Shown: positions 8,486-25,382 of the stretch, one piece after another
How the letters are laid out: each line of letters starts with the position of its first letter
Position numbering within the stretch: the first letter of the stretch is position 1
Source of the DNA: Oscillospiraceae bacterium
GTDB lineage: Bacteria; Bacillota; Clostridia; Oscillospirales; Oscillospiraceae
Length of the DNA stretch: 64,000 bases
Direction: 5' to 3'
NCBI GenBank assembly: GCA_022801715.1
Contig: JAAWSV010000001.1
Span: forward strand, 1 to 64,000
Notes under the pieces: generated by a model
What the model was told of the DNA's origin: nothing
The model's database searches: none
Seen by the model: only the letters and a program-made list of their open reading frames with translations
Translations under genes and position numbers: made by a program

Positions 8486-10645
8486 TCAGATTGTTCGTGG
8501 TACCCCGAGGGCGCGGCCCCGCCGCTGGGGCTGGATGCGCAGGCTTCGCAGTACGGTCCTCAGTGTGGCGCGGTACACCGCGTAGAGGATGGCGCTGCCC
8601 ATGGCCACTACCGCTAAGTTGGCGCTGTAGCCCGCCAGCTCGCTGGGAGTGAAGCCCGGGGGATTGCCGTTGAAGTACAGGATGAAGGCGTACAGCGCGC
8701 AGATGGCCAGAGTGCCCACGAGAGCGGGAACCGCAAAGACCCGGCCCACTTGGCGGCGGACAGACTGGTACAGGTACCGGGGGGAGGCCCCTAAGCGGCG
8801 GAGGTCGTCGTAAACCTGACGGCTGTTCAGGGCGATGGTGACGCAGCGGGTGTAGGCGATGACCAGCACGGCGGCGAAGCACACGATGGCCACAAAGGCG
8901 AAGAGCATCAGAAAGACCGCCACGGTTTTGGTGAAATCGTTCTGGTCCAGTACGCGGAAGTGGGGCATGTACTGCCAGTAGAGGCGGAAGGCGGAGCTCT
9001 CCCGCTGGGCGTAGTCCATGTTCCCCAGCCCGTTGGCCTCACAGTAGTCCGGGTCGGCGTAGTAGTAGCCCTTCTCCGCGATGTGCCGCTCCCGGATCAC
9101 CGGGTCCCAGCCGTCAACCACCGCCACTGACCGGCTGGAGCGGTCCACGATGGCGTTGAACAGGGCCTTGGCAAAGGGGTAGGTCTCCGACACATTCTCC
9201 ACGTCGAAAAAGATCTGGCGCTCCCGCCACTCTGCCGGGAGGCCCGCCGTCAGGGCGGCGTAGTCGGTGTCGCTGAGGATATATCGCCCCGCCAGCAGGC
9301 TGTTTTGCAGGAGACCCTCCGGTTCCACGGCCAGCACCGCGCCGGTGAAGGGGTTGGTGACACGGGAGATGCTGGTATAGCCGCCCTCTTGGCTTGCCGC
9401 GGGGAGGACCTTGCCGGGGGCCACGGACACCGCTTCGCCGGTGAGGGCGCGGCAGGCGCTCTCGGAGAGGAAGAGGTCGGTATACAGCTCCTCCATATAC
9501 ACCGCCTCAAAGGTGATGCCGAAGGAGGTCTCGGTCTCAAGCTCGGTGGTGCCGTCTACGGTGAGGCGAGCCAGATCGGCGGTACGGAAGGAGGTGACGG
9601 TTACCCCCATCTCCTCCGCCAAGGCCCGGACCTCCGGCTCCTCCGGGATATCTTGGTCGGCGCGGTAGTGGTAGGCGTAGTCCACCGGCTGGAGTTTGGT
9701 GGAGAGGGCATTCTGGGCGCTGATGGTGGGGATATAGAAGAGGCCGAAATAGCCGCCGGCGATGAGGACGGTAATGACCAGCATGTTCCGCACGGTCTGG
9801 CGGCCTTGGAACTTCATCATGCTGTTGGCGATGATATTTTGGTAGCGGTTCCTTTTCCGGCTCCAGCCGTTGACCACCGTGTGCAGCAGTACCATGTAGA
9901 GGCCGGGGAACAGGGGCAGGTAGAACAGGGAGAATACCGCCTCCGGTGGGAAGTAGTGGAGCACATCGAGAAAGAAGCCGGGGGCCATGTAGCCCAGCAC
10001 CATGCCTGAGCCCATCAGCAGAATGCCTGCAGGGCCATACCAGCGCTTTACCTCCCGGATGGGCTCGGAGCGCCGGGCCTCGCTGATGATCTCCATGATG
10101 TTGGTCCGCCGCAGGGCGCGCCAAGCCATCCACAGCAGCATGGCGGTGACAAAGGCGGAGAATACCAGAGCGAACAGGGCTGTTTGGGGACTGAGGATAA
10201 GGGCCATCTCCTCGGTGTCCACTACCAGCAGCCGGAACCCTTGCCAGATGCCGCAGGCCAAGGGGACGCCCAAGGCCATCCCGGCCAGACAGGAGAGGAC
10301 CGACAGTGCCCCCATTTCCCCCAGCAGCTTCCGCCCCACCTGCCGCTTGGAGGCCCCCAGGGCCAGCAGTACGCCCAGTTCCCGGCCCTTGTATCGGAGG
10401 AACAGGCCGGCGGCGTAGGCGGTGAACACCCCGCAGCCCACTACAGAGAGTATGAAGATCATCATCACCTGCTTGCGGCTGTCGCCGCCCTCGGGGAGGA
10501 CGGAGAGCACCGTGGGGGAGCGCATGATGGAAACGAAGGCGGTGATGAGGAGCACGGAGACGAAGCAGCACAGGGACAGGAGCAAATACTGCTTTCGGTT
10601 CTGCCGGCGCAGGGCGGCGGTGAGATCATTATAGGTCCGTATCAT
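8486..10645 (-). CDS. FtsX-type ABC permease, BceB-like
   Basis: The 719-residue membrane protein has two FtsX-like permease blocks with about ten transmembrane helices. One pair near the N-terminus is followed by three helices, and a hydrophilic domain of roughly 200 residues (about 310-530) precedes the last helices. This is the architecture of BceB-type transporters, whose large extracellular domain recognises antimicrobial peptides or their lipid targets. Its ATPase gene is directly upstream and the reading frames overlap by 17 bases, implying coupled translation. A BceRS-like sensor pair lies 13 kb away (23724-25382) and may regulate it; that link is inferred. Confidence 0.88.
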   Translation of the reverse strand: MIRTYNDLTAALRRQNRKQYLLLSLCCFVSVLLITAFVSIMRSPTVLSVLPEGGDSRKQVMMIFILSVVGCGVFTAYAAGLFLRYKGRELGVLLALGASKRQVGRKLLGEMGALSVLSCLAGMALGVPLACGIWQGFRLLVVDTEEMALILSPQTALFALVFSAFVTAMLLWMAWRALRRTNIMEIISEARRSEPIREVKRWYGPAGILLMGSGMVLGYMAPGFFLDVLHYFPPEAVFSLFYLPLFPGLYMVLLHTVVNGWSRKRNRYQNIIANSMMKFQGRQTVRNMLVITVLIAGGYFGLFYIPTISAQNALSTKLQPVDYAYHYRADQDIPEEPEVRALAEEMGVTVTSFRTADLARLTVDGTTELETETSFGITFEAVYMEELYTDLFLSESACRALTGEAVSVAPGKVLPAASQEGGYTSISRVTNPFTGAVLAVEPEGLLQNSLLAGRYILSDTDYAALTAGLPAEWRERQIFFDVENVSETYPFAKALFNAIVDRSSRSVAVVDGWDPVIRERHIAEKGYYYADPDYCEANGLGNMDYAQRESSAFRLYWQYMPHFRVLDQNDFTKTVAVFLMLFAFVAIVCFAAVLVIAYTRCVTIALNSRQVYDDLRRLGASPRYLYQSVRRQVGRVFAVPALVGTLAICALYAFILYFNGNPPGFTPSELAGYSANLAVVAMGSAILYAVYRATLRTVLRSLRIQPQRRGRALGVPRTI

Positions 10646-11390
10646 CGCTGTCCTCCCCGCACATGGCTTTCACGGCAGCCAGCAGCCGGTCATGGAAGGC
10701 GCTGCGCTGGCCTGCATTTACAAGGGTGTCGTACACAGTGCCGTCCTTCAGGAGCACCACCCGGTCGCAGAAGGAGGCGGCGAAGGAGTCGTGGGTCACC
10801 ATGAAAATGGTGGCGCCTAAATTTTTCCGGGCCCGCTGGAAGCTGCCGATTACCGCCCGGCTGGACTTGCTGTCCAGGTTGCCGGTGGGCTCGTCGGCCA
10901 GAATCAGCAGGGGATGGTTGATGAGGGCCCGGGCCACAGCGGTGCGCTGCCGCTCGCCGCCGGAGATGTCTGAGGGGTACTTGCCTTTGATGTGGTCGAT
11001 GCCGAAGGTGCGGCACAGATCGTCGGCGTAGGTCTCCGCCATATCGTCCACGCCGCCGGAGAGGATCCGGGGCAGGAGGATGTTGTCCCGGACGGTGAGG
11101 CCGTCCAGCAGCATGAAGTCCTGAAAGACGAAGCCAAGCTTCTGGTTTCGCACCTTGGCTAAGGCGTCCTCGTCCAAGCCGGCCAAGTGCTCCCCGCCCA
11201 GGGTGATGTCCCCGCTGTCCATGGGGATGTAGCAGGAGATGCAGTTGAGCAGAGTGGTTTTGCCGGAGCCGGAGGGCCCCATGACGGCCACAAACTCCCC
11301 CTCGGCCAGCTGGAAGGAGACCCCCTTGAGGACCTCTACAGGGGTATTGGCGATCAGGTAGGATTTATGGAGGTTTTCGACGTAGAGCAT
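10629..11390 (-). CDS. ABC transporter ATP-binding protein, BceA-like
   Basis: This 253-residue ATPase has Walker A GPSGSGKTT, Q-loop FQDFMLLDGLTV, signature SGGERQR, Walker B LLILADEPTGNLDS and the H-loop MVTHD, in the MacB/BceA subfamily. It powers the permease encoded by the overlapping gene. The start at 11390 (MLYVENLHKSY) lies nine bases after AGAAAGG; ATG 11399 is also possible but is only three bases from that site. The likely role is export or target release of peptide antibiotics. Confidence 0.92.
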   Translation of the reverse strand: MLYVENLHKSYLIANTPVEVLKGVSFQLAEGEFVAVMGPSGSGKTTLLNCISCYIPMDSGDITLGGEHLAGLDEDALAKVRNQKLGFVFQDFMLLDGLTVRDNILLPRILSGGVDDMAETYADDLCRTFGIDHIKGKYPSDISGGERQRTAVARALINHPLLILADEPTGNLDSKSSRAVIGSFQRARKNLGATIFMVTHDSFAASFCDRVVLLKDGTVYDTLVNAGQRSAFHDRLLAAVKAMCGEDSDDTDL

Positions 11391-11450
11391 AATTTTCATC
11401 CTTTCTGTTGAATGAGGAATGATAGAAAAGAAGTCTCCTATGGGAAAAAT

Positions 11451-14601: not shown

Positions 14602-14680
14602 GGCTTTCCTGATCAGGGAGGCAGTTTCCTTTTGTGCTGACCTCCCTATTGCCAGCCTGTTTGCTGGCCTTTTGAAAAAA

Positions 14681-14714
14681 ACAGGGGGTATACCCATGTG
14701 GGTATGCCCCCTGT
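14681..14714 (+). terminator. Terminator of the LytTR/GHKL operon
   Basis: A 15-bp stem (14681-14695 with 14700-14714, loop ATGT, one G-T pair) is preceded by an A-run and followed by TCGTTTTG. A second, G/C-only hairpin at 14743-14762 could serve the opposite-strand small gene. Confidence 0.82.
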
Positions 14715-14806
14715 TCGTTTTGTGGGCGCGGCGCGACGCCTGCGGCGGGGACCTCCCCGCCGGAAAGCCCCGTGAAGCGGCCTCTTGGCGGACGCTGTGT
14801 GAAGGT

Positions 14807-15260: not shown

Positions 15261-16703
15261 ATGGAATTGACAGAGCAAACCATCCTGCGGCTCTCCCCCA
15301 ACGCCGCGGCGGCGGAGAATGGGCGGAAGCTGTCGAAAAAGGGCAGCTTTTCCCAGCTGCACCGGACGGCGGACGATTCCCTCTACTGGGCGGACTGCGC
15401 CGGCAGCGGCAAGAACCCCTACCATACCTCCATAGACTTTTCTGACCGAGAGCAGCCGGTGTGCCGGTGCTCCTGTCCCAGCCGCCAGTTCCCATGCAAG
15501 CACTGCTTAGGGCTGATGTTTGAGATTTTGGCCGGCAGAGATTTCGCCTTGGCGGAGGTTCCCGCCGACATCGCTGAGAAGCGGGCCAAGCAGGCGGCCC
15601 GGGCCGAAAAGAAGGAGCAGGCGGCGACCGCCCCGGCCAAGCCCAAGAAGCCCAACGCCGCCGCCCAGACCAAGCGGATCAATGCCCAGCTCAAGGGGCT
15701 GGATCTGGCCGGACAGATGGTGGACGACCTTCTCGCCGCCGGGGTGGGCACCTTGGCCGGGGCCAACGCCCAGACCTATGAGAAGCTGGCCAAGGACTTG
15801 GGCAGCTACTACCTCACCGGCCCTCAGGCGGCCTTTGCCCGGATGGCCCTCGCCGCCCGCGCCATCCAGCGCAAGCAGATGGACGCGGAGCAGGGCTACG
15901 CCGAGGTGCTGCGGATTCTGATCGCGCTCCACAGCACCATCGAAAAGTCCAGAGCCTTCCTGCAGCAGAAGCTGGAGGCGGGGCAGTTCTCCGCCGAGGA
16001 CACGGTGCTCTTCGAGGCCTTGGGCGGCGTGTGGCGGCTGGAGGATCTCCACACCATCGGGGCCTACCGGGAGAATGTCCGGCTGGTGCAGCTCTCCTTC
16101 GATGTGTCCTTGGACGAGGCCAAGCGGGAGTACGTGGAGCGGGGCTGGTGGCTGGATTTAGACACCGGGCGCATCGACCAGACGCTGAATCTGCGGCCGC
16201 TGAAGGCTGTCAAGTACGTGAAGGCCGACGACAGCCGCTTTGAGCTGATGGAGGTCCCCACTCTCTACACCTATCCCGGTGAGAGCAACTGCCGTATCCG
16301 CTGGGACGGCTGCACCAGCCGCCCCATCACCGCGGAGGAGCAGACGGCCCTCCCCACGCTGGCCCAGCGGGATATCTCCACGGCGGTGAAGCTGGCCAAG
16401 GGACAGATGAAGAATACCCTCCTGCCCAAGTTCTACGCTGCCTTGGTTGGTGTGGGACGCATCGGTCGGGTAGGGGAGACCCTGCTGCTGGAGGACGGCG
16501 CCGGAGGGCGCATTGTGCTGCGGGACCGGAAGGAGGACGGGGCGGACCATGCCTGTACGGAGAGGCTCGCCATGCTGCCGGAGGGAATTCCGGCGGGTAG
16601 TGCCCTCTTCGGCCTGATCTTCTATGACAACGCCGACCGGTCGATCTGTCTGCATCCCTACAGTCTTGTGACCCAGGCGAGTACCATTCGCCTGTTGTAT
16701 TAA
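15261..16703 (+). CDS. SWIM zinc-finger protein
   Basis: This 480-residue protein has a SWIM zinc motif at residues 68-81 (CRC, eight residues, CKH), which binds DNA or protein partners. A charged A/K/P-rich linker follows (about 100-140), then a largely helical region with no recognised enzymatic motif. The ATG at 15261 has AGGAGG seven bases upstream; an upstream ATG at 15237 does not. It is the first gene of a tight operon with HEAT-like, MoxR, DUF5682, small and VWA genes. SWIM proteins head similar clusters in other bacteria, which supports a shared role rather than a specific one. Confidence 0.87.
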   Translation: MELTEQTILRLSPNAAAAENGRKLSKKGSFSQLHRTADDSLYWADCAGSGKNPYHTSIDFSDREQPVCRCSCPSRQFPCKHCLGLMFEILAGRDFALAEVPADIAEKRAKQAARAEKKEQAATAPAKPKKPNAAAQTKRINAQLKGLDLAGQMVDDLLAAGVGTLAGANAQTYEKLAKDLGSYYLTGPQAAFARMALAARAIQRKQMDAEQGYAEVLRILIALHSTIEKSRAFLQQKLEAGQFSAEDTVLFEALGGVWRLEDLHTIGAYRENVRLVQLSFDVSLDEAKREYVERGWWLDLDTGRIDQTLNLRPLKAVKYVKADDSRFELMEVPTLYTYPGESNCRIRWDGCTSRPITAEEQTALPTLAQRDISTAVKLAKGQMKNTLLPKFYAALVGVGRIGRVGETLLLEDGAGGRIVLRDRKEDGADHACTERLAMLPEGIPAGSALFGLIFYDNADRSICLHPYSLVTQASTIRLLY

Positions 16704-16718
16704 AGGAGGCGCGCTGCG

Positions 16719-18653
16719 ATGGATATGAAGCCCTTGTACGATGTGAAGGAGCGTTTGGAGCACGCTGCCATTGCCGGAACAGGACTTTTGGGGGAGGACT
16801 TCCGTCTGCGCCGCTCCGCTGAGGCCATGGCCCCCCTGGCGGCGGCCAGCCCGGTGTTCGCCAAGATTTCCGCCGGGCTGGAGGGCCTGCTGGCCGCTCC
16901 AGCGGAGGAGCGGGGCCGGCGGCTGCTCAGCCTGTTGGCCTTGGTGGACGCGGTGGCCTACACCCAAGGGACCACCGGTCTTGCCGGGGAGCTGACACCT
17001 CTGGAGAGCGGCGGCGGAACCTACTGCCAGATCTCCTACGGACAGATACAGCCCCTTCTCACCGCCCTCACCACCACCGGCGGCGGGCGGATGGAGGTGG
17101 TCAGCAGCGCTTATGAGAACCATCCGGAGTTCTTCCGGGACTACCGGGTACTGCCGGCGGTGATTGCCGGTTTAGGGGACAGCTATGGCGAGATGGCGGA
17201 GCAGAACGCCAAGATTTTGAAGGAGATCGGCTCCGATGCCCTGCCGCTCCTGAAGCGGGGCTTCGACGGCGCCGGGAAAAGGGACATGGCCCGCCGGGCG
17301 GAGGTCATCGCCGCCATTGAGGGGGCGGAGGCCACCCCTTGGCTCCTCTCCGTTTTGCCGGAGAGCAAGAAGGACGTCCGCGCCGCGGTGATCGAGGGTC
17401 TGGGGGCCAATGCGGAGAATACCGCTCTGCTCTTGGATCTGACCAAGAGTGAGCGGGGCAAGTGCCGGGAGGCCGCCCTCAGCGCCTTGGCCCTTCAGGA
17501 CGGAGAGGCGGTGAAGGCCTTCTGGACGGAGGAGCTGCCCAAGCGGGGGGAGAGCGTCAGCTTTTTGGCCAAGTCCCAGACCTCTTGGGCCTCCGATCTG
17601 GTGGCCGAGGGATTTAAGGCCTGCTTGGAACGCCTTTTGGCCGGTGACCGGGTTATTACCGCGGAGCAGAACGAGGAACTGCGCCGCTGGAGTGATGCGG
17701 CGGTGGGGAAGGACTCCCCAGCCATGCTGGACTTCTGGCGCTGGGCAAGCCGCTCTCAGGATATTGCCAAGCTGAAGCTCAAGGCGGGGATGCGGCACAT
17801 GGCGATAGAGGACGTTTTGCACTACTGTCTGACCCGCGGGCTCTGCTGCCGGGGGACTCCCTCCCTCTGCAACCTCTGCATCGAGCTGTGGGAGAGCAGC
17901 GGAAGGGGCGCCGCCCACCTGACACATGCCCTCTTTGCCGCCATCCTTACTTGGCCGGCGGAGGAGGTCTATGACCAGTTCTCCGGCTACATCCGCACCA
18001 AGAAGCCGCTGGCGGGCGCGGAGGAGGCCCGGCGGGCCCACAAGGCGGCCCTGAAGGCCCTGTGGATTCTCCGCTGGAACCCGGAGGCGGGGGGCTATTG
18101 CTCCTACTACGATGACCGCAGCAACCACGTTTTGGATGTCACCATTGACCGGCGGTGGTTCTCCCGGCTGATCGAGGCCGTCTGGAAGGTTCCCGGGGAC
18201 GGCCGGGAGCAGCAGTACATGCCTTACAACGGCGGGGAAACGGTGGGGGAGTTCGACATGACCCTGATCAATCTGGCCAACCCCGCCGACCAGACGGTCT
18301 GTGCCCTGATCGTTCCCTATCTCCGGGAGCGGATGGTGGAGACCGGGAAGTGGAGCGGCTTCAGCTTCGCCATTCTCCAGTTCCACGGCAGTCCCGTGGG
18401 CGCACTGGGGCGGAGCATGAAGAACAACCGGAAGGGCGGCTACCTCTACCATCTGTGGCGTATGCTCCAGGAGGCGTCCAAGGTGCTGCCGAAGGAGGAG
18501 CTGATCGCCCTCCTTCAGGAGGCGGACGAGGCCGGCGGCCTCCGGGCGGAGGACATACCCCTGTCAAAAGCGGCATTTCCCTACACCATCGCCATCTTGG
18601 AGGAGGGCAGGCCCTTCCCTGACTGGAGCGAGTGGTGGAGTCTGCGGCCTTAA
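16719..18653 (+). CDS. HEAT-like helical protein in SWIM-MoxR-VWA operon
   Basis: The 644-residue soluble protein is dominated by amphipathic helices. Residues about 150-290 show HEAT-like units (for example AVIEGLGANAENTALLLDLT and GKCREAALSALALQDG). It has no signal peptide, membrane helix or catalytic motif that I recognise. AAAGGAGG lies ahead of the ATG, 15 bases after the SWIM gene stop. In related gene clusters a DUF5691 gene often holds this place; whether this protein belongs to that family needs a profile search. It probably acts as a scaffold or target-binding subunit for the ATPase. Confidence 0.8.
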   Translation: MDMKPLYDVKERLEHAAIAGTGLLGEDFRLRRSAEAMAPLAAASPVFAKISAGLEGLLAAPAEERGRRLLSLLALVDAVAYTQGTTGLAGELTPLESGGGTYCQISYGQIQPLLTALTTTGGGRMEVVSSAYENHPEFFRDYRVLPAVIAGLGDSYGEMAEQNAKILKEIGSDALPLLKRGFDGAGKRDMARRAEVIAAIEGAEATPWLLSVLPESKKDVRAAVIEGLGANAENTALLLDLTKSERGKCREAALSALALQDGEAVKAFWTEELPKRGESVSFLAKSQTSWASDLVAEGFKACLERLLAGDRVITAEQNEELRRWSDAAVGKDSPAMLDFWRWASRSQDIAKLKLKAGMRHMAIEDVLHYCLTRGLCCRGTPSLCNLCIELWESSGRGAAHLTHALFAAILTWPAEEVYDQFSGYIRTKKPLAGAEEARRAHKAALKALWILRWNPEAGGYCSYYDDRSNHVLDVTIDRRWFSRLIEAVWKVPGDGREQQYMPYNGGETVGEFDMTLINLANPADQTVCALIVPYLRERMVETGKWSGFSFAILQFHGSPVGALGRSMKNNRKGGYLYHLWRMLQEASKVLPKEELIALLQEADEAGGLRAEDIPLSKAAFPYTIAILEEGRPFPDWSEWWSLRP

Positions 18654-18677
18654 CTTAGAGAAGGAGTGTGAAAAGTC

Positions 18678-19775
18678 ATGTCCGATCATAAGAACGTACA
18701 GCGCCTCCCGGCGGAGGAACTCTATCAGCGGGAGCTGGAGGCCCTGATCTCCGCGGAGCGGGACCCCATCCCCACCGGGTGGCGGATGTCCCCCAAGTCC
18801 GTGCTCACCTACCTCACCGGCAATACCAGTGTGAAGGGGGTGGAGATCACCCCCAAGTATATGGGCAGCCGTCGTCTGGTGGAGATCGCCATTGCCACCT
18901 TGGTCACAGACCGGGCGTTGCTGCTGATCGGTGAGCCGGGGACCGCCAAGAGCTGGCTCTCGGAGCATCTGGCCGCCGCGGTGAACGGTGACTCCACCAA
19001 GGTGGTCCAAGGCACCGCCGGCACCACCGAGGAGCAGATCCGCTACTCTTGGAACTATGCCATGCTCATTGCCCGTGGGCCCAGTATGGAGGCCATGGTG
19101 AAGACCCCGGTGTATCGGGCCATGGAGACCGGCTCCATCGCCCGTGTAGAGGAGATCTCCCGCTGTGCCAGCGAGGTGCAGGACGCCTTGATCTCCATTC
19201 TCTCCGAGAAGCGGCTCAGTGTGCCGGAGCTGGGGCTGGAGGTGCCCGCGGCCAAGGGGTTCTCTGTCATTGCCACCGCCAACACACGGGACAAGGGCGT
19301 CAACGACATGTCCGCCGCGCTGAAGCGCCGGTTCAACATCGTGGTGCTTCCCACCCCGGCGGATATGGCCACAGAGATGGACATTGTCCGTACCCGCGTG
19401 GCCCAGCTTTCCAGCGGGCTGGACCTGAACGCGAAGAAGCCGGATACCGACGCGGTGGAGAAGGTGGTCACCATCTTCCGTGAGTTGCGGAAGGGGGCCA
19501 CGCTGGACGGCAAGCAGAAGCTGAAAACTACCTCCGGCGTGCTCTCCACCGCCGAGGCCATCTCCCTGCTCACCAACGCCATGGCCCTGGCCGGCAGCTT
19601 CGGCGGCGGGACCATCACCGATGAGGACTTGGCCGCCGCCCTCCAAGGGGCGGTGGTGAAGGACGAGGAGCAGGACAAGGTCTGCTGGAAGGAGTACCTT
19701 GAGAACGTGATGAAGAAGCGGGGCAGCGCGTGGCTGGGCCTGTACCGGGCCTGCCGGGAGCTGGGGCAGGGATGA
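18678..19775 (+). CDS. MoxR-type AAA+ ATPase
   Basis: This 365-residue AAA+ protein has Walker A GEPGTAKS (residues 85-92), a Walker B/sensor block around RVEEISRCASEVQDALISIL, sensor 1 in VIATANTRDKG and the arginine-finger region SAALKRRF. MoxR ATPases work with VWA proteins as chaperones that remodel or activate partner complexes. A VWA gene lies 2.6 kb downstream in the same operon. The stop codon overlaps the ATG of the DUF5682 gene (ATGA at 19772), implying coupled translation. Confidence 0.92.
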   Translation: MSDHKNVQRLPAEELYQRELEALISAERDPIPTGWRMSPKSVLTYLTGNTSVKGVEITPKYMGSRRLVEIAIATLVTDRALLLIGEPGTAKSWLSEHLAAAVNGDSTKVVQGTAGTTEEQIRYSWNYAMLIARGPSMEAMVKTPVYRAMETGSIARVEEISRCASEVQDALISILSEKRLSVPELGLEVPAAKGFSVIATANTRDKGVNDMSAALKRRFNIVVLPTPADMATEMDIVRTRVAQLSSGLDLNAKKPDTDAVEKVVTIFRELRKGATLDGKQKLKTTSGVLSTAEAISLLTNAMALAGSFGGGTITDEDLAAALQGAVVKDEEQDKVCWKEYLENVMKKRGSAWLGLYRACRELGQG

Positions 19776-22105
19776 GCGGGCCGGTAATCTTCGGCGTGCG
19801 CCACCTGTCCCCGGCGGCGTCGCGGCACCTGCGGCGGGTACTGGAGGAGGTGCGCCCCCAGCTGGTGCTGGTGGAGGGGCCCAGTGATCTGAACGACCAG
19901 ATGAAGTGGCTCTGCCACCCGGATACGGCCTTTCCCGTGGCCATTTTGGCGTATACCCGCACCGCGCCGGTGCGGACACTGCTCTACCCCTTCGCCCGGT
20001 ACTCCCCGGAGATGGAGGCGGTGCTCTGGTGCCATGCGCATGACACCCCCTGCCGCTTCATGGATCTGCCCTCCTCCGTTTTCTTGGGCTTGGAGGAGGA
20101 GCGGGCGCGCCGGTGGGCTGAGGAGCTGGCGCGCCAAGAGGAGCAGGGGGAAGAGGAGGAACCCTCCGCCGAGGACGAGGAGGAGACAGAGGACGGGGAG
20201 GGCGACGCCGGCGAGTCCGTCTACCGCCGTTTGGAGCTGGCCACAGGAGAGGACCACGACACCTTCTGGGAACGGACCTTTGAACAGATCGAGGACACGG
20301 CGGACTATGCGAGCGCCTGCCATACCTTCGGCCGGGAGCTGCGGGAGCTGAGTCAGGACAGCCCCCGCCGCTGGTCGGAGACCTTGGTTCGGGAGGCCTA
20401 TATGAAGCGGGAGATCCAAGCGGCTATCGACAGCGGCGTGCCGCCGGAGAGGATTGTCTGTGTCTGCGGGGCCTTCCATGTGGCGGGGCTGGAGGAGAAC
20501 GGGCCCATGACCGACGAGGAGTTCTCCCGCCTTCCCAAGGCGGACAGCACCGCCACGCTGATGCCCTACTCCTACTACCGTCTCTCCTCCCGCTCCGGCT
20601 ATGGCGCGGGGAACAAGGCCCCGGCCTACTTTGAGCTGCTGTGGGACTGTTTTCAATCGGAGGAGGGGCTGGAGAGCCTCACCTATCGCTATCTGGTACG
20701 TTTAGCCGCCGCCCACCGGCGGGCGGGGAACATCGTCTCCTCCGCCGAGGTCATCGAGGCGGCCCGGTTGGCTGACACCCTCCGCACCATGCGGGGCGGG
20801 CGCTTCCCCTGCCTCGCCGACCTGCGGGACGCGGCGGTGACCGCCATGGGTCATGGCAGCTTTGCCGAGCTCTCTGTGGCGGCGGCGGATACCGAGATTG
20901 GGAAGCGTGTGGGCTTTCTGCCCGAGGGGGTCAGCCGCACCAGCGTGCAGGAGGACTTCTACCGGCAGTTAAAGGACCTGCGGCTGGAGAAGTACCGCAC
21001 CTTGGAGGTCCAGCGGCTGGACTTGGACCTGCGGGAGCGGCTGAATGTGAAGTCCAAGGAGGCGGCTCTCATCGACCTGCGACGCTCCTTCTTCCTCCAC
21101 CGCCTGCGGGTGCTGAACATCCACTTTGCCGCTCTGCTGCCCTCCCGGCAGGAGGGGGCCAACTGGGGGGAGTACTGGGAGCTCCGCTGGACACCGGAGG
21201 CGGAGATCGAGGTGGTGGAGAGCTCCCTTTTGGGGGACACCATCGAGGGCGCCGCCGCCTTCGCCCTGCGGGAGCGGGCGGACAACAGCGCCAGCGTGGC
21301 GGAGGCTGCGGCTATCTTCCGGGATGCCTTCCTCTGCGGGATGCCCGCGGCGGCGGCCCACGCCCTGACGGCTTTGCAGGGGCTGTCGGTGGACGCGGCG
21401 GCGCTGACGGAGGTGGCCGCGGCGGCGGAGCAGCTGAGTATCACCGTGCGCTACGGGGACCTGCGCCAGTTTGACAGCGCCCCGGTGCTGCCCCTGCTGC
21501 GCCAGCTCTATCTCCGCTCCTGCCTCACCATGGAGGAGGCCTGTCAGTGCGACGCCAAGGCCGCTCCGGAGGTTACGACCGCCATGGAGAAGCTGAACCT
21601 CCTCCAGCTCAGCCACGACTTTTTGGAGGAGGAGCGGTGGCTTGGCCTGATGGAGACCATCTCCGACCGGGATGATCTGAATACCCGTTGTTCCGGCTTC
21701 GCCATGGCCATCCTCTTAGAGCGGGGGAAGGCCGATGAGGAGCTGCTGGCGCGGGAGGTGTCCCGCCGTCTGTCCCCCGGCGTGCCGGCGGACTTAGGGG
21801 CGGGGTGGTTTGAGGGACTGGCGGCTAAGAACCGCTACGCCCTTATCGCCCGGCTCTCTCTGTGGCGGCATTTGGGGGACTATATCGCGGCGCTGGACGA
21901 CATGGATTTTCGCCGGGCGCTGGTGTTCCTCCGCCGGGCCTTCGCCGATTTCGCACCCTTGGAGAAGCAGGAGATCGCGGAGAACTTGGGCGAGGTCTGG
22001 GGCGTGGATCCCCGGCAAGCGGCGGAGGCGCTGACGGCGGCGCTTACCGAGGGGGAGCAGAAGGTCCTCGACGAACTGAACGACTTCGACTTCGACGACA
22101 TATAG
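19772..22105 (+). CDS. DUF5682 family protein
   Basis: The 777-residue protein begins MSGPVIFGVRHLSPAASRHL and continues LVLVEGPSDLND, the start typical of DUF5682, a family of unknown function found beside MoxR and VWA genes. An acidic low-complexity stretch lies at about 130-155, and VCVCGAFHVAGLEE near 230 resembles the end of a TraB/Tiki-like fold, which would suggest a hydrolase-like core. The remainder is helical. No signal peptide or membrane segment is seen. It overlaps the MoxR gene by four bases. Confidence 0.85.
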   Translation: MSGPVIFGVRHLSPAASRHLRRVLEEVRPQLVLVEGPSDLNDQMKWLCHPDTAFPVAILAYTRTAPVRTLLYPFARYSPEMEAVLWCHAHDTPCRFMDLPSSVFLGLEEERARRWAEELARQEEQGEEEEPSAEDEEETEDGEGDAGESVYRRLELATGEDHDTFWERTFEQIEDTADYASACHTFGRELRELSQDSPRRWSETLVREAYMKREIQAAIDSGVPPERIVCVCGAFHVAGLEENGPMTDEEFSRLPKADSTATLMPYSYYRLSSRSGYGAGNKAPAYFELLWDCFQSEEGLESLTYRYLVRLAAAHRRAGNIVSSAEVIEAARLADTLRTMRGGRFPCLADLRDAAVTAMGHGSFAELSVAAADTEIGKRVGFLPEGVSRTSVQEDFYRQLKDLRLEKYRTLEVQRLDLDLRERLNVKSKEAALIDLRRSFFLHRLRVLNIHFAALLPSRQEGANWGEYWELRWTPEAEIEVVESSLLGDTIEGAAAFALRERADNSASVAEAAAIFRDAFLCGMPAAAAHALTALQGLSVDAAALTEVAAAAEQLSITVRYGDLRQFDSAPVLPLLRQLYLRSCLTMEEACQCDAKAAPEVTTAMEKLNLLQLSHDFLEEERWLGLMETISDRDDLNTRCSGFAMAILLERGKADEELLAREVSRRLSPGVPADLGAGWFEGLAAKNRYALIARLSLWRHLGDYIAALDDMDFRRALVFLRRAFADFAPLEKQEIAENLGEVWGVDPRQAAEALTAALTEGEQKVLDELNDFDFDDI

Positions 22106-22113
22106 GAGGCTTT

Positions 22114-22398
22114 ATGGCGGGCTTTTGCATGGAAAACACCTGTCTTGTCACAGAATACTTGGAGCAGAAGGGCCTCTGTCCCACGGCGGCGGCGGACGAG
22201 GAGGGGATCACCCTGTCCTTGGACGGCCAAAACCGCCTGCTCCTCTCCGGCAGTCCGCTGGACCTGATCGCTCTGGCGGACCTGCTGGTGTCCCTTGCCC
22301 TCTCCGGGGAGAACCAAGGCCAGCACTGGCACGTGGACGAGCTGACGCTTCTTGACAAGTCCTCCCCCATCCCGGAGCTGATCCTGCTGCGAAAGTGA
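22114..22398 (+). CDS. 94-residue operon protein, immunity-like appearance
   Basis: A small protein encoded between DUF5682 and VWA, with TAGGAGG just before the ATG. The middle reads LSLDGQNRLLLSGSPLDL, followed by a helix LIALADLLVSLAL, then HWHVDELTLLDKSSPIPELI. This strand-helix-strand layout with the HxHxD motif recalls small immunity-type proteins such as Imm32, but I assign no family. It has two N-terminal cysteines and no membrane segment. It is not part of the usual description of SWIM/MoxR/VWA clusters, so it may be an accessory or regulatory subunit. Confidence 0.72.
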   Translation: MAGFCMENTCLVTEYLEQKGLCPTAAADEEGITLSLDGQNRLLLSGSPLDLIALADLLVSLALSGENQGQHWHVDELTLLDKSSPIPELILLRK

Positions 22399-22408
22399 GG
22401 CGATACCT

Positions 22409-23575
22409 ATGGTACAGACTGAACAGCTCAGCCGCTGGCGGCTGATTTTAGGTGCGGAGACAGAGAACACCTTCGGCAGTATGGGAGGCGCGCCCCTCTC
22501 GGCGGAGGAGCTTCTGATGGACAGTGCCCTCTCCGCCATCTACGGACAGGGGGAGGGCTTTGGCGGCGGACAGGGGGGCGGCAACGGGCCCTCGGCCCCG
22601 GTGCTCTCCAAGTGGCTGGGGGACCTGCGCAGCCTCTTTGACCCGGAGATGGTTGCTGTGGTGCAAAATGATGCCATCGAGCGCAAGGGGCTAAAGCAGC
22701 TTCTGCTGGAGCCGGAGCTGCTGGAGAACTTGGAGCCGGATTTGGACTTGGCCTCCACGCTTCTGGCGCTGAAGGACCAGATCCCCAAGAAGTCCAAGGA
22801 GGCCGCCCGGCAGTTTATCCGCAAGATCGTGGCGGAGATCAACAAAATGCTGGAGAATGACGTGCGCCGGGCGGTGACAGCGGCGCTGAACCGCCGGGCC
22901 CACTCCCCTCTGCCCTCCGCCGCGGCCTTGGACTTCCCCTGCACTATCCGGCGGAACCTGCGCAACTACAACCCGGAGCTGGGGACCATCATCCCGGAGC
23001 GGGTGTGGTTCTTCGACCGGTCCAGCCGGGTAAACCGGTGGCACGTAATCCTCGACATCGACCAGAGCGGGTCCATGGGCCAGTCCATCCTCTACTCCTC
23101 GGTGATGGCCTGCATCCTGGCCAGTATGTCCGCCGTGCGCACCAGCGTGGTGGCCTTTGACACGGAGATCATGGACCTGACGGACCTCTGCGCCGACCCG
23201 GTGGACCTGCTCTTCGGCTTCCAGATGGGCGGCGGCACGGATATCGCCAAGTCCATTGCCTACTGCCAGAATTTGGTTGACAGCCCCAAAAAGACCCTGT
23301 TCTTCCTGATCTCCGATCTGGAGGAGGGGGGCAACCGGGCGGCGCTGCTGCGTCGAATTGAGGAGCTGAAGGCGGCCGGAGTGACGGTGGTGGTGCTCTT
23401 AGCCATCGCCGACGGCGGCCGTCCCTTCTACGATGCCAAGACCGCCCAGCACATCGCCGCCATGGACATCCCCTGTTTCGCCTGTGCGCCGGAGAAGCTG
23501 CCGGTGCTGCTGGAGCGGACCCTGAAGGGGCAGGGGCTGGAGGATTTGGTGAAGGAGAGCAAGGGGAAGAATTAG
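22409..23575 (+). CDS. VWA-domain protein, MoxR partner
   Basis: This 388-residue protein has an N-terminal helical region with a glycine-rich patch (48-60) and a C-terminal von Willebrand A domain (about 205-375). The metal-ion site is intact: DQSGS at 218-222, followed by GGGTDIAKS and the conserved ISDLEEGG. VWA proteins of this kind are cytoplasmic adaptors for MoxR ATPases. It is the last gene of the operon; no clear terminator follows before the BceR-like gene. Confidence 0.9.
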   Translation: MVQTEQLSRWRLILGAETENTFGSMGGAPLSAEELLMDSALSAIYGQGEGFGGGQGGGNGPSAPVLSKWLGDLRSLFDPEMVAVVQNDAIERKGLKQLLLEPELLENLEPDLDLASTLLALKDQIPKKSKEAARQFIRKIVAEINKMLENDVRRAVTAALNRRAHSPLPSAAALDFPCTIRRNLRNYNPELGTIIPERVWFFDRSSRVNRWHVILDIDQSGSMGQSILYSSVMACILASMSAVRTSVVAFDTEIMDLTDLCADPVDLLFGFQMGGGTDIAKSIAYCQNLVDSPKKTLFFLISDLEEGGNRAALLRRIEELKAAGVTVVVLLAIADGGRPFYDAKTAQHIAAMDIPCFACAPEKLPVLLERTLKGQGLEDLVKESKGKN

Positions 23576-23723: not shown

Positions 23724-24389
23724 ATGAAGATTTTCTTAGTGGAGGATGACGCGGTGATTGCGGCCGCTATTGAGAGGCACCTCGCTGGCTGGGGGTATGA
23801 GGTCCGCTGTGCTGGGGACTTTCAGCATGTGATGGAGGCTTTTGACGCATTTCAGCCGCATTTGGTGCTGTTGGATATCTCACTGCCCTTTTTTAATGGC
23901 TACCACTGGTGCGGGGAGATTCGCAAGGTCTCTAAGGCGCCGATTCTGTTTCTCTCCTCCGCCGCGGACAATATGAACATCGTTATGGCTGTCAGCATGG
24001 GGGGCGATGACTTTGTCCCCAAGCCCTTTGACTTGGAGGTGCTGACGGCCAAGATTCAGGCCCTTCTTCGCCGCTCCTATGATTTTGCCGCCGCTCCCGC
24101 TCTAAGTCGGGGTGGGGTTACGCTGGATCTCAGCGCGGCGGTGGTGAAGTGCAGCGGGGAGAAGCTGGACCTGTCCCGCAATGAGTTTCGCATTTTGCAG
24201 GTGCTTATGGAGAACGCCGGCAGGGCCGTTTCCCGGGAGACACTGATGCTCCGGCTGTGGGAGACGGACAGTTTTGTGGATGAGAACACGCTGTCGGTAA
24301 ACATCAACCGCCTGCGCCGGAAGCTCTCCGGTATCGGGCTGGCGGACTTTGTCAAGACGAAAAAGGGCTTCGGTTATTTGGTGGAGTAA
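23724..24389 (+). CDS. OmpR-family response regulator, BceR-like
   Basis: The 221-residue regulator begins MKIFLVEDDAVIAAAI, has the phospho-acceptor Asp in LVLLDISLPFFNG, and a winged-helix DNA-binding domain (about 125-221) ending TKKGFGYLVE. The LPFFNGYHWCGEIR segment is characteristic of BceR-type regulators, which turn on peptide-detoxifying ABC transporters. The kinase gene follows six bases later. A BceAB-like transporter is at 8486-11390 in the opposite orientation. Confidence 0.9.
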   Translation: MKIFLVEDDAVIAAAIERHLAGWGYEVRCAGDFQHVMEAFDAFQPHLVLLDISLPFFNGYHWCGEIRKVSKAPILFLSSAADNMNIVMAVSMGGDDFVPKPFDLEVLTAKIQALLRRSYDFAAAPALSRGGVTLDLSAAVVKCSGEKLDLSRNEFRILQVLMENAGRAVSRETLMLRLWETDSFVDENTLSVNINRLRRKLSGIGLADFVKTKKGFGYLVE

Positions 24390-24395
24390 AATGAG

Positions 24396-25382
24396 ATGAG
24401 ACTGCTGTTTGCCTATGGAAAGGAGCGATTTTTTGTCCTCCTGCTGCTGATCGCTTGGTGGCTGCTCTACGCCGTGGTGTTTGCCCTCTACCGCCTGAAC
24501 TTGGAGGCTGTGCTCTACGCCGCCGTTCTTGGGGCGGTGGGTACCTTGACTGTGGCGGCGGTGGATTTCGGGCTGTGGCTGCGCCGCCTGCGGACGCTGC
24601 GGGAGCTTCAGAACCGGGTGACACTGGGGCTGGACGGCCTGCCGGAGCCCTATGGGGCCACAGAGGGGGCGTACCAAGAGCTGCTGCGCAGCCTCTATGC
24701 CGACCGCCTGACCCAGCTCGGAGCCGCCGGCGCCCGGGAGAAGGACATGGTGGACTATTATACCCTCTGGGCCCACCAGATCAAGACACCCATTGCCGCC
24801 ATCCATCTGCTCCTCCAGCATGACGACTCGGAGCAGGGGCGGGAGGTGGCGGCGGAGCTGTTCAAGGTGGAGCAGTATGTGGAGATGGTGCTCCAGTACC
24901 TGCGCTTAGGCGGCAGCAGCACGGACTACCTCATTGCCGAGGTTCCTTTGGAGCCCTTGGTGCGGCAGGCGGTGCGCAAGTACGCACCTCTGTTTATCCG
25001 CAGCCGTGTGACCTTGGACCTCCGGCCCATCCATGGCAGTGTCCTCAGTGACGAGAAGTGGCTGGGCTTCGTGGTGGAGCAGCTGCTCTCCAATGCGGTG
25101 AAGTACACACGGGGCGGCACGGTGCGTATCCTTCAGAAGGGGAGCGACCTTTTGATTCAGGATACCGGTATCGGTATCGCAGCGGAGGACCTGCCCCGCA
25201 TTTTTGAGAAGGGTTACACCGGCTGCAACGGCCGGACAGACAGGAAGTCTACCGGTATCGGTCTGTACCTGTGCAAAAACGTCTGTGACCGCTTGGGCCA
25301 TGGGATTGCCGTCTCCTCCGAGATAGGCCGGGGTACAGAGGTCCGCCTCACTCTCCAGCGCGCCCTGCTGGAGGTGGAGTAA
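24396..25382 (+). CDS. Intramembrane-sensing histidine kinase, BceS-like
   Basis: The 328-residue kinase has two N-terminal membrane helices (about 13-35 and 38-60) with hardly any extracellular loop, the hallmark of intramembrane-sensing kinases. The acceptor segment is LWAHQIKTPIAAIHLLL, and the ATPase domain has EQLLSNAVKYT, DTGIGI and TGIGLYLCKNV. Such kinases receive their signal from a BceAB transporter. Terminator 25400-25435 closes the operon. Confidence 0.9.
   Translation: MRLLFAYGKERFFVLLLLIAWWLLYAVVFALYRLNLEAVLYAAVLGAVGTLTVAAVDFGLWLRRLRTLRELQNRVTLGLDGLPEPYGATEGAYQELLRSLYADRLTQLGAAGAREKDMVDYYTLWAHQIKTPIAAIHLLLQHDDSEQGREVAAELFKVEQYVEMVLQYLRLGGSSTDYLIAEVPLEPLVRQAVRKYAPLFIRSRVTLDLRPIHGSVLSDEKWLGFVVEQLLSNAVKYTRGGTVRILQKGSDLLIQDTGIGIAAEDLPRIFEKGYTGCNGRTDRKSTGIGLYLCKNVCDRLGHGIAVSSEIGRGTEVRLTLQRALLEVE

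Follow-up and report, generated by a model that had tools for sequence, protein, structure and literature searches.

A YehLMPQ-type MoxR-VWA gene cluster from an Oscillospiraceae genome, with a HEAT-repeat protein and a putative TIKI/Ere-like hydrolase

Results

Genes at the locus

The stretch of DNA analysed here, called the window throughout, comprises 64,000 nucleotides of an Oscillospiraceae genome (contig JAAWSV010000001.1) and holds between positions 15261 and 23575 six open reading frames, all on the + strand, that encode in this order a SWIM zinc-finger protein, a HEAT-repeat protein, a MoxR ATPase, a DUF5682 protein, a small protein and a VWA protein (Table 1). A six-gene SWIM/HEAT/MoxR/DUF5682/VWA cluster had been proposed in a sequence-only reading of this DNA, and all six frames were confirmed with Pfam matches that agree with it. 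The MoxR and DUF5682 genes share an ATGA overlap, and no consensus promoter of the sigma-70 type was found for the operon. Measured against the nearest relative (genome G554), dN/dS ranges from 0.028 to 0.171 across the five core genes, with the HEAT gene at 0.17, and is 0.21 for the small gene; the ORFs of the operon are functional genes rather than chance ORFs.

Upstream lies an FtsX permease/ABC pair, with TraX and a LytTR/GHKL pair between it and the operon, and a regulator/kinase pair follows downstream. These BceAB/BceRS-like neighbours, pointed out in the same reading, are real, and because the sister genome G553 keeps them while the operon is missing from the same site we consider their link with the operon incidental. 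At the operon's position G553 has a short lipoprotein-like gene (L127, 5900-6850), and in genome G086 the LytTR/GHKL genes, which stand ahead of the operon in the window, are immediately followed by a different MoxR-VWA_CoxE pair (L129, 6069-8467).

Table 1. Features of the operon and its flanks, in coordinates of the window.
Feature	Position	Strand	Remarks
FtsX permease/ABC pair	8486..11399		BceAB/BceRS-like, upstream
Terminator-like hairpin, strong	14680..14715	+	16-pair stem, 9 G-C pairs; 3' of GHKL kinase gene; upstream boundary of operon region
SWIM zinc-finger protein, 480 aa	15261..16703	+	Pfam SWIM 23.6 bits; CxC..CxH intact; positional counterpart of YehQ
HEAT-repeat protein, 644 aa	16719..18653	+	Pfam HEAT_2 27.9 bits, barely above cut-off
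MoxR AAA+ ATPase, YehL type, 365 aa	18678..19775	+	Pfam AAA_5 E 3e-39
DUF5682 protein (YehM homologue), 777 aa	19772..22105	+	Pfam DUF5682 E 4e-148
Small Imm32-family protein, 94 aa	22114..22398	+	Pfam Imm32 E 8e-8
VWA_CoxE protein (YehP homologue), 388 aa	22409..23575	+	Pfam VWA_CoxE E 3e-43
Regulator/kinase pair	23724..25382		BceAB/BceRS-like, downstream

Relatives of the cluster

Scanning genomes for DUF5682 by means of an alignment turned up 80 loci. Every complete related locus keeps the order SWIM-HEAT-MoxR-DUF5682-VWA, its genes usually spaced a few tens of bases apart. Trees built from either MoxR or DUF5682 show an identical split into three clades, which carry as their large helical partner HEAT (72 loci, the window among them), DUF4132 (9 loci, in E. 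coli and relatives) or DUF5691 (3 loci, in Rhizobium/Deinococcus). Moreover, within the HEAT type (type A) MoxR, DUF5682 and VWA have strongly correlated distance matrices (r 0.92-0.93, Mantel p 0.001). The cluster is passed on as a whole, with a large helical partner that differs clade by clade, and the conserved unit consists of five genes, SWIM, HEAT, MoxR, DUF5682 and VWA, with the small gene outside this core; beyond the five no conserved neighbour was found in the sampled loci. In one locus the gene next to VWA, 18 bp away, is clpS, followed by clpA (L034, 13473-16096), and a ClpA homologue also adjoins the operon in L040 and L062, which together with L034 form one related Lachnospiraceae group; this adjacency hints at a role in protein handling.

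The earlier reading overlooked the relation to yehL-yehM-yehP-yehQ of E. coli K-12, where a YehL-type MoxR, a DUF5682 protein, a VWA protein and a SWIM protein stand in one cluster with yehI (DUF4132) nearby. Three of the components are homologous to those of the window along their whole length, namely MoxR (40% identity to YehL, E 1e-84), VWA (34% to YehP, E 5e-72) and DUF5682 (26%), while a RavA control reached 26 bits against the window MoxR. The SWIM protein gave no BLAST alignment with YehQ, and a profile match (probability 63, E 7e-5) and the presence of the zinc finger make the pair possible homologues. The two clusters differ in that the E. coli SWIM gene comes last, so that the gene order is not that of the window, and in the large partner, which is a DUF4132 protein in E. 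coli and a HEAT protein in the window. The gene order of the window recurs in the SWIM-DUF5691-AAA-DUF5682-VWA clusters on plasmids of Rhizobium, Deinococcus and Methylosinus (the VWA gene being unlisted in the incomplete Methylosinus annotation), and their SWIM protein is homologous to ours (hhalign E 9e-28); however, they carry DUF5691 at the HEAT position and form a separate clade. The HEAT protein itself could be recognized neither as a remote DUF5691 (profile probability 1.8, no detectable homology) nor as a remote DUF4132 (weak profile similarity, probability 35).

A second kind of cluster, in which MoxR-DUF5682-VWA is joined by DUF4132 and a protein of SWIM type, occurs in the window's genus and in Paenibacillus. 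Such E. coli-like clusters were seen among relatives of the window in genomes G552, G550, G143 and G071 (L131, L132, L134 and L135), the last of which has both types. For yehLMPQ we found no known function; just two papers name the genes, each gene once per paper, and DUF5682 is mentioned in none of 5.39 million open papers. The operon is a real, conserved and as yet uncharacterised YehLMPQ-type machine in its HEAT form, and its composition is well supported.

The MoxR-VWA motor

The sites of both motor proteins are nearly universal among relatives. In MoxR the Walker A lysine is kept in 90 of 93 copies and the Walker B EE in all 93, with the sensor asparagine and arginines conserved in nearly all, and the MIDAS D/S/S of the VWA protein is kept in 91 of 92 copies and intact in that of the window. 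The intact Walker motifs and metal site claimed from sequence are thereby borne out, and the proposal of an NTP-driven multi-protein system is supported. Sequence search found no solved relatives of the VWA protein. Previous work on NorQ-NorD has shown that a finger of the VWA protein enters the MoxR pore and that force is exerted on a linker (PMC13036017), and for this reason we take ATP-driven remodelling as the default reading of a MoxR-VWA pair. The likeness to NorQ-NorD lies in the MoxR ring and the MIDAS-bearing VWA cofactor; however, the MoxR subfamily is another one (best NorQ match E 4e-4), and the window system lacks a nitric oxide reductase client and has three further conserved partners.

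DUF5682 and the TIKI/TraB/Ere superfamily

The DUF5682 protein consists of an N-terminal alpha/beta domain resembling TraB, TIKI and Ere proteins (residues 1 to about 275) and a C-terminal helical region. Four of its residues, H11, E35, R207 and H236, are the same in all 96 sequences compared and in the profile alignment are colinear with the His, Glu, Arg and His of TraB. The profile match to PrgY/TraB (probability 77, E 2e-5) is suggestive rather than conclusive, and one relative encodes a genuine TraB protein (Pfam E 5e-29) that matches the DUF5682 model as well, at E 3e-4. Sequence search returned no solved relatives. Predicted structures had pLDDT values of 90 and 89, the latter for the N-terminal domain, which we searched alone because helical-repeat proteins swamped the fold search with the full-length protein. 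Among 350,542 PDB chains Foldseek ranked EreC highest, followed by two TraB-family proteins, with ChaN also listed; the EreC and TraB matches had E values of 0.03-0.2 and TM-scores of 0.32-0.34 (best E 0.03, TM-score 0.32), there was no match at E 0.001, and no single score is significant.

The order and spacing of the four residues are also close to those of TraB and EreC. The active residues of EreC are H50, E78, H289 and R261 (PMC7979712), and the His-Glu spacing is 24 residues in DUF5682 vs 28 in EreC, that of Arg-His 29 vs 28. TIKI-family endopeptidases have a common 2His/2Glu site (PMC6254334). The second Glu ahead of the first His (E47 in EreC) is absent from DUF5682, which has GxRH there with an invariant R10, and PrgY/TraB sequences likewise have no such Glu. 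DUF5682 shares with the TIKI/TraB/erythromycin-esterase superfamily the H-E-R-H order as well as a profile similarity and a tentative fold similarity over its N-terminal 275 residues, but differs in its long helical C-terminal region and in having no acidic residue before the first His. These comparisons of profiles and predicted models support but do not prove a TIKI-like fold, and suggest that DUF5682 is likely, though this is not proven, a putative TIKI/Ere-like hydrolase; the possible TraB-like core of the sequence-only reading has gained support from the profile match, the invariant residues and the top-ranking PDB folds.

The HEAT and SWIM proteins

Mean pairwise identity among the 57 complete loci of the HEAT type falls from 76% for MoxR through 63% for VWA, 54% for DUF5682 and 45% for SWIM to 27% for HEAT, which is the fastest-evolving component. 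In 11 loci the full-length HEAT gene is present in 2-4 tandem copies that are 37-59% identical. A constant motor and enzyme alongside a diverging and duplicating HEAT subunit fits a role of the latter in recognition or as an adaptor, although its variability could also stem from relaxed constraint, given its dN/dS of 0.17. The CxC..CxH motif of the SWIM protein is kept in 64 of 65 relatives.

The DUF5682/VWA junction

The Imm32 gene between DUF5682 and VWA occurs only in the window and in its close relative G554, and 119 further genomes of the family were searched without a match; apparent matches in other loci proved to be shadow ORFs within the DUF5682 gene. The small protein of the earlier reading is accordingly present as an ORF, but it is a lineage-specific insert into a core that lacks it. 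DUF5682 and VWA are adjacent in most loci. At five loci the junction holds unrelated inserts: HSDR_N_2 (L049, 4327-5532), RtcB (L056, 12322-14758), ankyrin (L075, 3499-6839), PBP/GyrI/GNAT (L044, 12285-13707) and TPR (L141, 1630-3339). No common theme was found among them, and the junction looks like a cargo slot.

Discussion

The best-supported mechanism for this cluster, which we regard as plausible while judging its chances to be slightly short of even, is a MoxR-VWA motor joined to a TIKI/Ere-like hydrolase (DUF5682) and a helical HEAT adaptor. MoxR would form an ATP-driven ring with VWA as its cofactor, as in NorQ-NorD, and this motor would remodel a protein substrate chosen by the HEAT subunit, with SWIM helping. 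DUF5682 would be the hydrolase of TIKI/TraB/Ere fold, whose H11-E35-H236 site with R207 may act on the remodelled substrate, and substrates could be remodelled either for the hydrolase or together with it. The gene content, the fixed order, the co-inheritance, the conserved active sites and the clade-wise replacement and duplication of the HEAT subunit are what we observe at these loci; we infer that DUF5682 is active as a hydrolase, that HEAT selects the substrate and in what order the steps proceed.

DUF5682 might instead be the client, matured or loaded (for example with metal) by MoxR-VWA much as NorQ-NorD serves nitric oxide reductase. The mature protein would then act on a small-molecule or protein substrate of its own, with HEAT and SWIM as assembly scaffolds. 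VWA_CoxE is a family of enzyme-maturation cofactor proteins, the ATGA overlap ties the MoxR gene to that of DUF5682, and MoxR proteins, whose genes mostly neighbour one for a VWA cofactor, have specific complexes as their targets (PMC3893208). This reading leaves unexplained that, amid an otherwise fixed cluster, the large helical partner is divergent, is duplicated and is replaced, and we rate it a serious but rather unlikely alternative. The earlier suggestion of a complex-assembly role agrees with the MoxR-VWA literature insofar as complexes are remodelled. Respiratory complexes are the targets of RavA-ViaA and of other MoxR pairs (PMC3893208, PMC10585395). The cluster might also be a chaperone that matures a complex whose genes lie elsewhere, with DUF5682 a non-catalytic member of its fold. 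The want of a conserved neighbour past the five genes in the sampled loci is in keeping with this, but invariance of H-E-R-H in every sequence would be unusual for a pseudoenzyme, and we hold the idea to be improbable.

A role in phage defence or biological conflict is more doubtful still, and the defence or regulated toxicity put forward from the sequence is not supported. Several observations do point that way: the operon is patchy, being found in 4 of the 11 genomes of the window's genus and over the cut-off in 8 of 398 across the phylum, it is absent at the same site in G553, one subunit (HEAT) is variable and duplicating, and HSDR_N_2, RtcB or Imm32 inserts occur occasionally. Patchiness alone, however, is insufficient to call the operon a defence system, and yehM is near-universal in E. 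coli (5303 of 5426 genomes, 98%). The sequence-only reading had named core-genome distribution free of defence association, or loss of the ATPase or metal sites, as evidence against its view; the cluster is core in E. coli, yet patchy in the window's genus, and its active sites are almost never lost. That reading had also proposed a survey of neighbourhoods for defence islands and effector variation. Here PADLOC families at E 1e-10 numbered 9 among 145 proteins encoded up to 5 kb away from the operons of relatives vs 35 in 144 control proteins taken mostly from related genomes, a small control whose counts suggest that it included a defence island, and the flanks are not enriched; the VWA protein carries no variable effector (median length 396, range 378-482 in 57 loci), and in its window copy only VWA families exceed their cut-offs. 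No relative of the operon was confirmed in viral contigs. The sole phage-labelled match, MT835988.1 (L179, labelled Bacteriophage sp.), was rejected as phage carriage, the contig being bacterial chromosome with ordinary genes and a portion of the operon.

The MoxR-vWA ternary conflict systems (PMC7159879) share with the window the MoxR and vWA core, a strict gene order and congruent trees. They differ in their third component and effectors, since Pfam finds no VMAP, iSTAND, FtsH or beta-propeller component in the six proteins and the window has no variable effector fused to vWA; the window MoxR lies barely over the bpMoxR cut-off (29.3 vs 27), and SWIM, DUF5682 and YehL are unnamed in the text of that study. 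Least probable by far is that the operon is a toxin-immunity module, with the small protein protecting against another operon product: the Imm32 match of the small protein exceeds the Pfam cut-off, but this protein is confined to two close relatives and the junction elsewhere is empty or holds unrelated inserts.

Returning to the motor-hydrolase mechanism, we tentatively suggest, while thinking it on balance rather doubtful, that these clusters represent a novel class of machine that processes proteins at the expense of ATP, in which a MoxR-VWA motor feeds a TIKI/TraB-fold hydrolase via a swappable, duplicating helical-repeat adaptor, and which would occur in E. coli K-12 as well as across several phyla of bacteria. 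To our knowledge a coupling of MoxR-VWA remodelling to hydrolysis has not been described before, and such a coupling is what the mechanism would mean if true. The putative TIKI/Ere-like active site and the exchangeable adaptor moreover yield concrete, testable predictions for yehLMPQ in E. coli.
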